Assembly (NCBI RefSeq): GCF_937951745.1
Contig: NZ_CALFBQ010000078.1
Coordinates: 1 to 35,338, forward strand
Length of the DNA: 35,338 bases
Source of the DNA: an uncultured Chloroflexus sp.
GTDB lineage: Bacteria; Chloroflexota; Chloroflexia; Chloroflexales; Chloroflexaceae
Direction of reading: 5' to 3'
The stretch's first letter is position 1. Each line of letters opens with the position of its first letter. Made by a program: the position numbers and the translations under genes. Below the pieces are notes generated by a model, which was not told the origin of the DNA, searched no databases, and saw only the letters and a program-made list of their open reading frames with translations. Shown piece after piece: positions 29,501-33,166 of the stretch.

Positions 29501-30835
29501 ATGGAACGGGCTTGGGTCATTATCGGCAAAATCACGCAATGGGTTGCCGTGATCGCAGTCGCCTTCCTTGGTGGTTGGATCACCGGGCGAATTGTCGGCG
29601 TCTCGCCGATTGATGTCTTCATTACCGGCGTCTCGAATGCCGACGCACGGCTGCTCACTCCCGGCGACCGGCGCCAACAATTTGCCGTCTTTTGGGATGT
29701 CTGGGATTTGGTGGAGGGCAACTTCTACCAACCCGAAGCGATCAATCGCCAGCGTATGGTCTACGGCGCCATCCGAGGCATGCTAGCAACGCTCGACGAT
29801 CCCTATACCTATTTCCAAGAGCCGGAAGAGGCGCGCCAAAACCGCGATTCGATGGAAGGACGCTTTGAAGGGATTGGTGCCTATTTGCGGGTGGAAAACG
29901 GCCAAATCATCATCGACCGCCCGATTCGCAACTCGCCTGCCGAACAAGCTGGCTTGCAACCGGGTGACATTATCGTCGCGGTAGACGACCAACCGCTGGC
30001 TGAGTTGATTGCCGGATTGGACGACAAAGATGCTAGCGCCCGTGCAGTCAGTCTCATTCGCGGCCCGGCGGGCACTGTGGTGCGTTTGACCATCCGCCGG
30101 CCTGCTGACGATCGTGTCTTTACCGTCACCATCACTCGCGCCGCCATCCCGCTGATTACCGTTCATCACGCCCTCTTACCTGACGAGATCGCGTACATCC
30201 AGATCACCGAGTTCAAAGCGAGCACAACCGAACTCCTTGACCAAGCCATCGCCGAACTACGCCCGCAACAACCACGCGCGATCGTGCTCGATCTACGCAA
30301 TAATTCAGGCGGCTTCCTAACCACGGCGCAAGAGGTGTTGGGCCGGTTTTACGACGGAGTCGCGCTCTATGAAGAGGAGCGTGGCGGCGTGAACAAAGAA
30401 TTGCGCACAATTGTCGCCCCTGCCGATCGCCGGCTATACGGCATTCCAATGGTCGTGCTGGTTAATGGCGGATCGGCCAGCGCTGCCGAGGTGGTAGCGG
30501 GCGCGTTGCGCGATGCGCGCCCGAACACCGTATTGCTCGGTGAGAAGACCTTTGGCAAGGGATCGGTACAAAACATCTATACGCTGCGGGATGGTAGCAG
30601 CGTGCGGATTACGATTGCGCGCTGGATTACGCCGGAGGGTGAGGCGATTAATGGGGTCGGGATTACGCCAGAGCACATTGTGTTGGCGTCGAATGAAGCG
30701 GAATATGCCGCGCCATGCGTGCCTGACCGACCAGAGGATAGTAGCTGCGCTGATGCGCAACTCTATTGGGCACTGAAGTTGTTGCGTGAAGGTGTGGCGC
30801 CGCCGGCGGTGACCGAAACAGTAACGGCCCCTTAA
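29501..30835 (+). CDS. C-terminal processing peptidase (S41 family, CtpA-like)
   Basis: The 444-residue product starts MERAWVIIGKITQWVAVIAVAFLGGWITG. One N-terminal hydrophobic helix (about 10-30) anchors it, with the rest outside. AAAGG lies 8 bases before the ATG. A PDZ domain (about 115-200) contains GIGAYLRVENG and AEQAGLQPGDIIVAVDDQPL. The catalytic S41 domain has IVLDLRNNSGGFL, Ser325 in GGSASAAE and Lys353 in TFGKGSVQ, the Ser-Lys dyad. It trims or degrades exported proteins from their C-termini. rsmE ends 13 bases upstream. The stop codon lies inside a palindrome. Confidence 0.93.
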   Translation: MERAWVIIGKITQWVAVIAVAFLGGWITGRIVGVSPIDVFITGVSNADARLLTPGDRRQQFAVFWDVWDLVEGNFYQPEAINRQRMVYGAIRGMLATLDDPYTYFQEPEEARQNRDSMEGRFEGIGAYLRVENGQIIIDRPIRNSPAEQAGLQPGDIIVAVDDQPLAELIAGLDDKDASARAVSLIRGPAGTVVRLTIRRPADDRVFTVTITRAAIPLITVHHALLPDEIAYIQITEFKASTTELLDQAIAELRPQQPRAIVLDLRNNSGGFLTTAQEVLGRFYDGVALYEEERGGVNKELRTIVAPADRRLYGIPMVVLVNGGSASAAEVVAGALRDARPNTVLLGEKTFGKGSVQNIYTLRDGSSVRITIARWITPEGEAINGVGITPEHIVLASNEAEYAAPCVPDRPEDSSCADAQLYWALKLLREGVAPPAVTETVTAP

Positions 30836-30842
30836 GGGGCCG
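30823..30842. terminator. 20-base perfect palindrome overlapping the ctpA-like stop codon
   Basis: ACGGCCCC-TTAA-GGGGCCGT contains the TAA stop. It can form a strong hairpin in RNA of either strand, ending the protease transcript from the left or a minus-strand RNA from the right. No clear T-tract follows on either side. Confidence 0.55.
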
Positions 30843-30848
30843 TACACC

Positions 30849-31015: not shown

Positions 31016-31276
31016 AATGACGCAGTGCAGAAAAAGAGAATGGGCGGCTACTGCTGGTAGCGATTTGGTCACTGTTGTACGATTTTTCGTTTCAATCAGG
31101 GCTATAGGTGGCAACACCCGATTGACGGGCGAGGTACAATGATAACAAACAAATGTTCTACTAACGATGCATAGTGAGTGAGAGTCGCTGATGCATCAAA
31201 TGACGATCCTATCGCGGCAACCAACACTGTTTTGTGTTTTTCTGCGGCTATACACAACGACGATGCTGAGGTGGCT

Positions 31277-33166
31277 ATGAGTACCCCACGCCCCACCATC
31301 CGCGGCGAACGACATAACGATACGAATGACCTTGAATTGCGCGACTACCGGTTGCACGAACAGGTTGGACAAGATGAGCTGTCAATCATCTACCGTGCCA
31401 CGCACCAAACCCTCAACCGGCCGGTCTATGTTGCGATCTTACGCCGCCACGACTGGATTTCAAACAGCCGGTTTCAACTTGCCGCCCGGCTAGCAGCCAG
31501 CCTCAGCCACCCGCACCTGTTGCCGGTAATCGACGCCGGCCATGACGACCGCTACGGCGACTACATGGTGACGCCGTATATCGATGCCCGCCCGCTGAGC
31601 GACATCCTTGCCGAGGGCATACCCGATTTGTCGTTAGCGATGCGGGTTATTAACCAGATGGCTGCTGCGCTCGATTATCTCCACGAGCAGCAGATTGTGC
31701 ATCGTGATGTACAACCGGCCAACATTCTGGTCACGCCGCAAGGCAATGCCTATCTGACCAACCTGAGCCTTGCCGCAGCGCCCGATACACCGCTCGATCT
31801 GAGCACGTTGAGCGAGGCCGAGTATCTGACCCCCTACTCGGCGCCTGAGCTACACCTTACGCAGACCGAGGCGCATCCTGCGCTCGATATTTATAGTCTG
31901 GGAGCAGTTGCTTACCATCTGCTTAGCGGTGAATTGCCGCCGAGCGGCTTGATCGTTGAACTTGATCTGGCCGGTAAGTCGCCGGCGCTGGCACTGGCCG
32001 AACGGGCGCTGTTGCGGATGCTCTCGCCGCAGCCGAACTTGCGGTTTCCGACCGCTGGTGCAGCAGCGAATGCGCTCAGGCTCGCATTACGCACGTTGCT
32101 TGACCAGACCACGACCGACATGGAGGAGTCACGGTGGGAAACGTGCGCCGAGTGGTTTGAAAATCCGCTGGAATTGGCGCTCACCGCCGAGTTGGCGGAT
32201 TTAGCTGAGCAGTTTAACCACTTCCTGACCGAGTCGCGGAAACGGGCAGATAACCTTCACCGGCGCGACTACCTGCGCAAATGGTTCAACCGTTGGAGCC
32301 GGCAGCATCCGTTTCGCCGCCAATCGCTCGGCCAACTGATCGAGTTTGAGACGATTGCTAGTTATAACATCTACTTCTACGAGCTGGAGGTATTGTACGA
32401 GTTTCGCACGTCGCCGAAGACGCAGATTCGCCCGATGCAGCTCGATGAGCGACCAATCGCTGAACCGGCGCTTGATTTGTGGAAGATGCAGTTACCGCCG
32501 CCAAAAGATTTTGCCTCGGAGGCGGGTGGCGACGTAGTCTTGCCGGGATCGCGGCGATTCTTTACCTGCCCCGATTGCCAAGGTTCGGGTCAAGTCCAGT
32601 GCTCGCAATGCCAAGGCAAAGGAATGATCAAGCCGCGAGCAAAGCAGGGCGAGCCTGATCCGGTCGAGCAGACGTGTACTCAATGCCGAGGTTATGGTAA
32701 AGTTCGCTGCGAGAAGTGTGCCGGCAATGGCAATTTGGTCGAAGAGAAGGTGTTTCATTGGTCACGCAAGGCGCTCGCGTATGAGAATAATGATGATAGC
32801 GAGGGATTGCCGCCTAGGGTGCAAGCATTGTTGCGCCAGCGCGCGCGTAAGGTGTACGAGGCGGAGATTGACCTTTATGATAGCCATTGGCAAAGTGCCG
32901 GGCCGCTGAGCGCGTTGATCGAAAAGGCGATCAAGGAAGCCGGTGAGCAGGGGCAGCCATTGCGGGCATTGTTACAGATCAAGGGCGCGATGGTGACGCA
33001 GATCAACGGCTTGCTTGACGAGCAAGAATGTGAGCTGTACCTCATCGGGCCAGATGAGACCTTGGTGAGCACGATTTCGCTATGGAATTGGGAACGGATT
33101 GCGCTGGTAGTGGTGCTGGCGTTGTTTGTGGTGATGGCGGTGGTGGTAGGGATCATCATGATTTAG
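31277..33166 (+). CDS. Pseudokinase fused to DnaJ-type zinc finger with C-terminal membrane anchor
   Basis: The 629-residue product starts MSTPRPTIRGERHND, with GAGGTGG just upstream; a longer frame from 31178 lacks an SD. Residues of about 28-275 have a Ser/Thr kinase fold (YRLHEQVGQDELSIIYRA, ALDYLHEQQIVHRDVQPANI, YSAPELH, DIYSLGAVAYHLLSGELP). The catalytic residues are altered: the VAIK lysine is Leu55, HRDVKPAN has Gln146, and the DFG triplet reads Asn162-Leu-Ser. Residues 431-485 carry four CxxCxGxG-type repeats (cysteines 431/434, 442/445, 467/470, 478/481) as in DnaJ, which bind two zinc ions. A hydrophobic helix (about 600-629) ends the chain. The DnaJ J-domain is absent. It may be a membrane scaffold; its function is unknown. 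Confidence 0.9.
   Translation: MSTPRPTIRGERHNDTNDLELRDYRLHEQVGQDELSIIYRATHQTLNRPVYVAILRRHDWISNSRFQLAARLAASLSHPHLLPVIDAGHDDRYGDYMVTPYIDARPLSDILAEGIPDLSLAMRVINQMAAALDYLHEQQIVHRDVQPANILVTPQGNAYLTNLSLAAAPDTPLDLSTLSEAEYLTPYSAPELHLTQTEAHPALDIYSLGAVAYHLLSGELPPSGLIVELDLAGKSPALALAERALLRMLSPQPNLRFPTAGAAANALRLALRTLLDQTTTDMEESRWETCAEWFENPLELALTAELADLAEQFNHFLTESRKRADNLHRRDYLRKWFNRWSRQHPFRRQSLGQLIEFETIASYNIYFYELEVLYEFRTSPKTQIRPMQLDERPIAEPALDLWKMQLPPPKDFASEAGGDVVLPGSRRFFTCPDCQGSGQVQCSQCQGKGMIKPRAKQGEPDPVEQTCTQCRGYGKVRCEKCAGNGNLVEEKVFHWSRKALAYENNDDSEGLPPRVQALLRQRARKVYEAEIDLYDSHWQSAGPLSALIEKAIKEAGEQGQPLRALLQIKGAMVTQINGLLDEQECELYLIGPDETLVSTISLWNWERIALVVVLALFVVMAVVVGIIMI

Follow-up and report, generated by a model that had tools for sequence, protein, structure and literature searches.

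The window analysed here, the whole stretch of 35,338 nucleotides, encodes a member of a bacterial pseudokinase family that is real, conserved and, as far as the literature was searched, undescribed. This family (B) has an active-looking twin (A), and its tail module also occurs alone. The member in the window is a protein of 629 residues that combines a Hanks-type kinase fold, a DnaJ/BSD2-like module of eight cysteines and a transmembrane (TM) helix at its C terminus (Table 1).

Gene organization and domain architecture

The start, end and 629-residue frame of the gene are as given in an earlier note on this DNA, and a GAGGTGG run at 31268–31274, two bases 5′ of the ATG at 31277, supports the start. 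The HRD (residues 142–144), SAPE (188–191) and DIYSLG (204–209) motifs cited in that note were all located in the protein, as were its four CxxCxGxG repeats, each of them literal, at residues 431, 442, 467 and 478, and its C-terminal helix, which hydropathy returned as a hydrophobic segment. The ‘spacer’ of approximately 150 residues does exist, but it is part of a conserved module (residues ~287–600) rather than a mere spacer; the module stands alone in other families of the Chloroflexota and, within the order, in four genomes.

Table 1. Positions in the window of the family B gene and of the features of its product.
Feature	Position	Strand	Basis or remark
Gene, pseudokinase-zinc-module-TM protein (family B), 629 aa	31277..33166	+	ATG start; stop ends 33166
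Pseudokinase domain, residues 24 to ~275	31346..32101	+	PF00069, StkP/PknB alignments, model matches
Ala53, VAIK lysine position	31433..31435	+	StkP alignment, paralogue alignment
Arg56-Arg57, B-specific constraint (R in 51/53 and 53/53)	31442..31447	+	Alignment
Ala69, alpha-C glutamate position	31481..31483	+	Alignment
HRDVQ, residues 142–146: Asp144 kept, Gln146 replaces HRDxK Lys	31700..31714	+	Alignment
Asn162-Leu163-Ser164, replacing DFG	31760..31768	+	Alignment
Tail module, conserved N-terminal part, residues 284–425	32126..32551	+	Tail alignment A1; stand-alone tails start nearby
Eight-cysteine module, four CxxCxGxG, residues 431–486 (probably zinc-loaded)	32567..32734	+	BSD2_CRD and DnaJ_CXXCXGXG profiles; invariant Cys
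Tail module, conserved C-terminal part, residues 527–600	32855..33076	+	Tail alignment A1
C-terminal TM helix, ~residues 606–628	33092..33160	+	Hydropathy; segment in 53/53 B, 17/17 A

Upstream, on the same strand and ending at 30835, lies a gene whose product we take to be an S41-type processing peptidase; the downstream gene, on the opposite strand, presumably encodes a UvrD-type helicase. A GC-rich inverted repeat at 30824–30843 overlaps the end of the peptidase-like gene, and has a terminator-like score on the minus strand only. Across 57 loci, the S41-peptidase neighbour was matched in 20 and UvrD in 11, and a conserved operon was set aside on these counts; the absence of a neighbour says little here, since many flanks extend only ~1.5–2 kb and five of the loci (L033–L037) repeat others. 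No common partner emerged among the 20 neighbouring proteins scanned. In a search with the whole protein, 467 plasmid records matched, none covering 80% of the query, and the best 10 of these 467 covered 31–38% of it, in the kinase part. Part of a family-C protein had no match among plasmid records, nor had the window’s tail among phage records.

The kinase fold

Profile search and structure prediction, both proposed in the earlier note, each point to a kinase fold. The Pkinase profile PF00069 scored 84.8 bits (cut-off 31.7) over residues 24–223, which places the protein within that family, and phmmer against solved kinases returned StkP, PknA and PknB as the nearest by sequence (best E 8.7e-25). 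A structure model of the whole protein was unusable (pLDDT 39.7). The kinase domain was also modelled separately (residues 17–283) from six sequences, with a mean pLDDT of 50.7, a C-lobe of fair quality and a poor N-lobe. This low-confidence model was still kinase-shaped: it matched PknE with Z 14.8 over 140 residues (2.9 Å) and PknB with Z 14.7 over 188 residues (5.0 Å), and the matches listed for it in both fold searches were kinases, which bears on the kinase domain and not on the tail; the Foldseek TM-scores were only ~0.48. The outcome that the note had named as fatal to its reading, a predicted structure devoid of a kinase fold, is thus not what was obtained, even at a mean pLDDT of 50.7.

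Loss and retention of catalytic residues

The window protein was aligned with 52 orthologues, giving 53 sequences in total; L002 and L003 (the window itself) were left out, as were L033–L037, whose blastp values are duplicates of the ones for L004, L006, L010, L022 and L005. The VAIK lysine, the alpha-C glutamate and the DFG aspartate are missing from all 53 sequences. The column of the VAIK lysine holds H 31, A 9, S 7, R 3, F 1, Q 1 and Y 1, that of the alpha-C glutamate (column 69) A 51 and S 2, and that of the DFG aspartate N 44, G 7, S 1 and M 1. Similarly, E (28) or D (25) has taken the place of the second Gly-loop glycine (column 33), and Q (48), R (4) or H (1) that of the HRDxK lysine. 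Lacking both the VAIK lysine and the DFG aspartate (0/53 for each), B is a pseudokinase family on that definition, and the losses of the alpha-C glutamate and the second Gly-loop glycine go beyond those listed in the earlier note. Conversely, the HRD aspartate, Asp204 and Arg256 are retained throughout the alignment.

The earlier note had assigned Gln146 and Asn162 correctly to HRDxK and DFG, respectively, but its placement of the VAIK lysine at Leu55 is off by two: VAVKVLR of StkP aligns with VYVAILR, which puts the position at Ala53, and all 17 sampled paralogues have lysine in that column. The claim of lysine loss survives the wrong register, because none of the 53 aligned B sequences has lysine in the Ala53 column. 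Homologues with intact lysine or aspartate, which the note had said would imply a local sequence error, did not appear at either of the two key positions (0/53), and the pseudokinase that it proposed is a conserved one, with catalytic losses in every aligned sequence. Nothing was found to suggest that the window had been wrongly sequenced or assembled, and the orthologues rule this out, since the losses are common to all 53 and the frame is open for 629 codons; we regard such an error as vanishingly improbable.

The same residues bear on nucleotide binding, which had been suggested for the protein. Judged from the sequence, binding appears less likely, because the VAIK lysine, alpha-C glutamate, Gly-loop glycine and DFG aspartate are gone; an unusual mode of binding could still be accommodated, because the HRD aspartate and Arg56/Arg57 are conserved. 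By analogy with the DLHK pseudokinases, B might bind nucleotide in a non-standard manner, or catalyse some other transfer, through the HRD aspartate (53/53) and the arginines that follow beta-3 (Arg57 in 53/53, Arg56 in 51/53). A review of bacterial pseudokinases (PMC12599244) describes DLHK proteins as keeping the HRD aspartate and as modelled to bind ATP through arginines. We nevertheless consider this reading quite unlikely, given that the four residues named above are gone from all 53 sequences, that the catalytic-loop Asn149 is retained in only 39/53, and that the pocket is poorly modelled.

Selection and family-specific constraint

In the window’s genus, the dN/dS of the pseudokinase was 0.056 (ratio of means, 24/28 pairs usable), and that of the tail parts of B was 0.110 for residues 284–425 (18/28 pairs), 0.074 for residues 426–498 (9/28) and 0.144 for residues 499–600 (13/28), compared to 0.076 for the kinase of A (5/6 pairs usable; 1/6 for the A tail); these values are rough, since dS is near saturation (means 1.2–1.8) and many pairs were unusable. 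The pseudokinase is under purifying selection in this genus, and is not decaying.

Constraint was also compared between 47 non-redundant B sequences and 17 A sequences. Thirty-one positions are constrained in B and not in A, some of which carry the same residue in up to half of the A copies; 24 of them fall in the kinase domain, and 15 of these in the N-lobe. The N-lobe excess of B-specific positions has p 0.0017 against a flat expectation, but is not significant when set against the positions that both families conserve (Fisher p 0.13).

The cysteine tail module and membrane anchor

The BSD2_CRD profile PF25436 scored 33.7 bits on the window’s B protein (cut-off 27), a membership that is not uniform, since the cut-off was reached in only 4/9 proteins scanned. 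The DnaJ_CXXCXGXG profile PF00684 (cut-off 32.7) gave 25.4 bits by hmmscan, where all 9 scanned proteins fell below the cut-off, and 33.6 bits in the genome search with neighbours in frame. On the full-length DnaJ profile TIGR02349 the protein scored 24.9 bits against a required 377.2, which sets it apart from DnaJ (type I Hsp40), and no J-domain occurred among its Pfam matches at E up to 1, in agreement with the earlier note. The eight cysteines are invariant in all 28 aligned tails, and the module is probably zinc-loaded, as judged by its cysteine pattern. The C-terminal hydrophobic segment is the sole segment of its kind in 49 of the 53 B proteins.

To follow the tail beyond the order, we used a profile built from alignment A1 (28 rows). 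Of 400 genomes sampled from the phylum, 104 matched with E no higher than 1e-6, and 40 of these belong to the window’s order; many of the other 64 matches were weak and confined to the cysteine part, and may be plain DnaJ-type proteins. Twenty stronger tail loci outside the order (L118–L137, from other Chloroflexota families) were fetched, with the window and A loci serving as positive controls for kinase detection. These homologues have frames of 486–748 residues, additional CxxC motifs and an N-terminal stretch that looks helical. A hydrophobic TM segment was found in 0/20, and a kinase, in frames of at least 80 residues of the fetched DNA, likewise in 0/20. The tail is its own unit, able to stand alone.

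The window’s tail (32126–33076) and one of these homologues (L120) may resemble animal SSUH2, in which a W motif, CxxCxGxG repeats and strands at the C terminus follow one another in a similar order. SSUH2 is not known to have a kinase domain. No paper on the architecture of SSUH2 proteins was among the matches listed for the open-licence literature.

An active-looking paralogue

Paralogue A is approximately 30% identical to B and has the kinase fold, tail module, eight cysteines and C-terminal TM segment in common with it (e.g. L067, G000:C41:37201-39150, minus strand). We sampled 17 copies from the ~68 genomes with A. Whereas B has lost the VAIK lysine, alpha-C glutamate and DFG aspartate, A keeps these, together with the Gly-loop glycine and the whole of DFG, in 17/17 copies. 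The HRDxK lysine is replaced in A (S 12, A 3, T 2), and the HRD arginine is cysteine (HCD) in 2/17. A MoxR-type AAA gene adjoins A in 4/17 loci, all in the window’s genus.

A tree was built from 46 kinase domains (17 of the 53 B, 17 A and 12 other kinases of the window’s genome). In it, A and B are each split off by a single branch (support 99/98 and 99/100, respectively), and constitute two ancient clades. A common origin of A and B would follow from the shared tail; the tree itself leaves their nearest-relative relation unsettled. The two genes lie at different loci and are unlinked.

Distribution and lineage-specific losses

When the whole protein was searched against the order, presumably Chloroflexales, all 82 genomes gave matches, many of which were ordinary kinases. 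The tail profile matched 78 of 158 genomes in the class: 78/82 in the order and 0/76 outside it. Within the order, at least two tail matches were found in 65/82 genomes, one in 13 and none in 4. Presence was then counted by hand from the listings, where fragments at contig ends may mislead: A occurs in 68/82 genomes and B in 76/82 (74 by tail, 2 by kinase-domain fragment), the two occurring together in 65, whereas 3 genomes have A but not B, 11 have B but not A, and 3 have neither.

Loss of B’s pseudokinase domain was seen in one genus, g34. Four of its genomes (G074, G076, G078 and G081) have a tail-only B, encoded by stand-alone tail genes (L138, L140, L141 and L142) that begin near the domain boundary; no kinase was found in the flanking DNA examined, and no A was detected in these genomes. 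Three others (G073, G075 and G079) have A together with B’s pseudokinase, G077 has B’s pseudokinase with A undetected, G071 has A and a B cut by a contig end, and G072 and G080 (72% and 60% complete) have neither. Outside g34, B’s pseudokinase is kept with A undetected in G057 and G058. In part of one genus the pseudokinase has thus been lost along with A, but the link is not strict. A strict need of B for A finds no support, because G057, G058 and G077 retain the pseudokinase with A undetected.

These patterns allow for a dedicated pair, in which B’s dead domain would bind A’s kinase in the membrane and either activate A or position its substrates; the shared tails would join A and B, and client binding by B itself would be secondary. 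The two proteins have the same architecture and TM segment, both genes are present in 65/82 genomes, the four genomes that lack B’s pseudokinase domain all lack A, and the B-specific constraints are N-lobe-rich. However, the three genomes just named keep B’s pseudokinase where no A was detected, the four tail-only genomes belong to one genus and may reflect one event, and the A and B genes are unlinked. We judge this reading to be unlikely.

Two further g34 pseudokinases, L058 and L059, are more degenerate than others, with an altered APE motif and a joint branch length of 1.28, as if in passage to the tail-only state. Could the pseudokinase be a disappearing relic that a useful tail carries along? 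The loss of the domain in four g34 genomes, its greater degeneracy in two others and the occurrence of the tail alone in other families would fit such a course. Yet its dN/dS in the window’s genus lies below that of all three tail parts (on the rough values given above), the domain recurs throughout the order with its catalytic residues lost in the same way, and it has constraints of its own, so that we consider a relic very unlikely.

Comparison with known systems

No paper describing a kinase or pseudokinase joined to a DnaJ-type zinc module was found in the open-licence literature searched, which accords with the remark in the earlier note that the arrangement was unfamiliar to its author. 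Seven families are covered by the review of bacterial pseudokinases, in whose text the words DnaJ, zinc and Chloroflex do not occur (PMC12599244). By the features compared, B stands outside GLW, DLHK, CP1, DYD and ActPs3. GLW proteins have GLW in place of HRD, whereas B has HRD in 53/53. DYD proteins have arginine at the beta-3 lysine, which in B is R in 3/53 and H in 31. CP1 is defined by the absence of a TM segment and by a COG3899 domain, and B differs on the former, with a TM segment in 53/53. DLHK proteins are closer, in that they too keep the HRD aspartate and have lost the ATP- and metal-binding motifs; they all lack a TM segment and are frequently joined to a helicase or nuclease domain, whereas B has a C-terminal TM segment (53/53) and a cysteine module. 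Lastly, the mycobacterial MviN (ActPs3) is, like B, the Hanks-type pseudokinase of a membrane protein, and is described as recruiting a partner and dimerising; its catalytic motifs are wholly degraded and its activation loop carries a deletion, whereas B keeps HRD in 53/53 and carries a cysteine module.

The tail has its own parallels. BSD2 and ZnJ2, the J-domain-less DnaJ-like zinc proteins of chloroplasts, have four CxxCxGxG repeats and no J-domain, as in B, but are small and have no kinase, whereas B is longer and has conserved flanking parts and a TM segment. ZnJ2 binds zinc and prevents the aggregation of denatured citrate synthase (PMC5818400). In bacteria, predicted GTPases are fused to a DnaJ-cysteine-rich-like domain in FtsZl1 operons, which also hold protein kinases (PMC2875224). 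These fusions resemble B in joining a DnaJ-Cys-like domain to a signalling-type domain, but there it is a GTPase rather than a pseudokinase, and the proteins are typically not membrane-associated.

A model for family B

Our preferred interpretation, held tentatively and with a little less than even confidence, is that B’s pseudokinase does not phosphorylate but serves as a docking or allosteric domain, gating a membrane-bound, zinc-containing, chaperone-like module, perhaps together with A. B would be tail-anchored, with the kinase fold and cysteine module facing the cytoplasm, a topology that we infer from the window protein, which has a single C-terminal helix and no other such segment. The older, autonomous working part would be the cysteine module together with the parts that flank it, and, probably loaded with zinc, the module may bind unfolded or partner polypeptides as BSD2 and ZnJ2 do. 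The pseudokinase, with conserved N-lobe residues of its own, would transfer no phosphate; acting as the pseudokinase of MviN does, by recruiting a partner and dimerising, it would decide what the membrane-bound module engages. The scaffold or sensor envisaged in the earlier note is a plausible description of such a protein. As for its origin, a gene already encoding kinase and tail may have been duplicated early in the order, one copy (A) keeping an active-looking kinase and the other (B) becoming a pseudokinase, and A would be the first candidate for B’s partner.

A broader extension, which we put forward as speculation and think unlikely, is an order-wide membrane system in which active A and its dead twin B, with the same tail-anchored cysteine modules, would make up a kinase-controlled chaperone or quality-control receptor, with B’s pseudokinase as the switch, shed after the loss of A. 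In family B a kinase fold is joined to a chaperone-like module at the membrane, an arrangement for which the open-licence literature searched yielded no paper. With an active-looking twin, and with lineages that lack either the pseudokinase or the twin, the family makes the role of a dead kinase testable by comparison.
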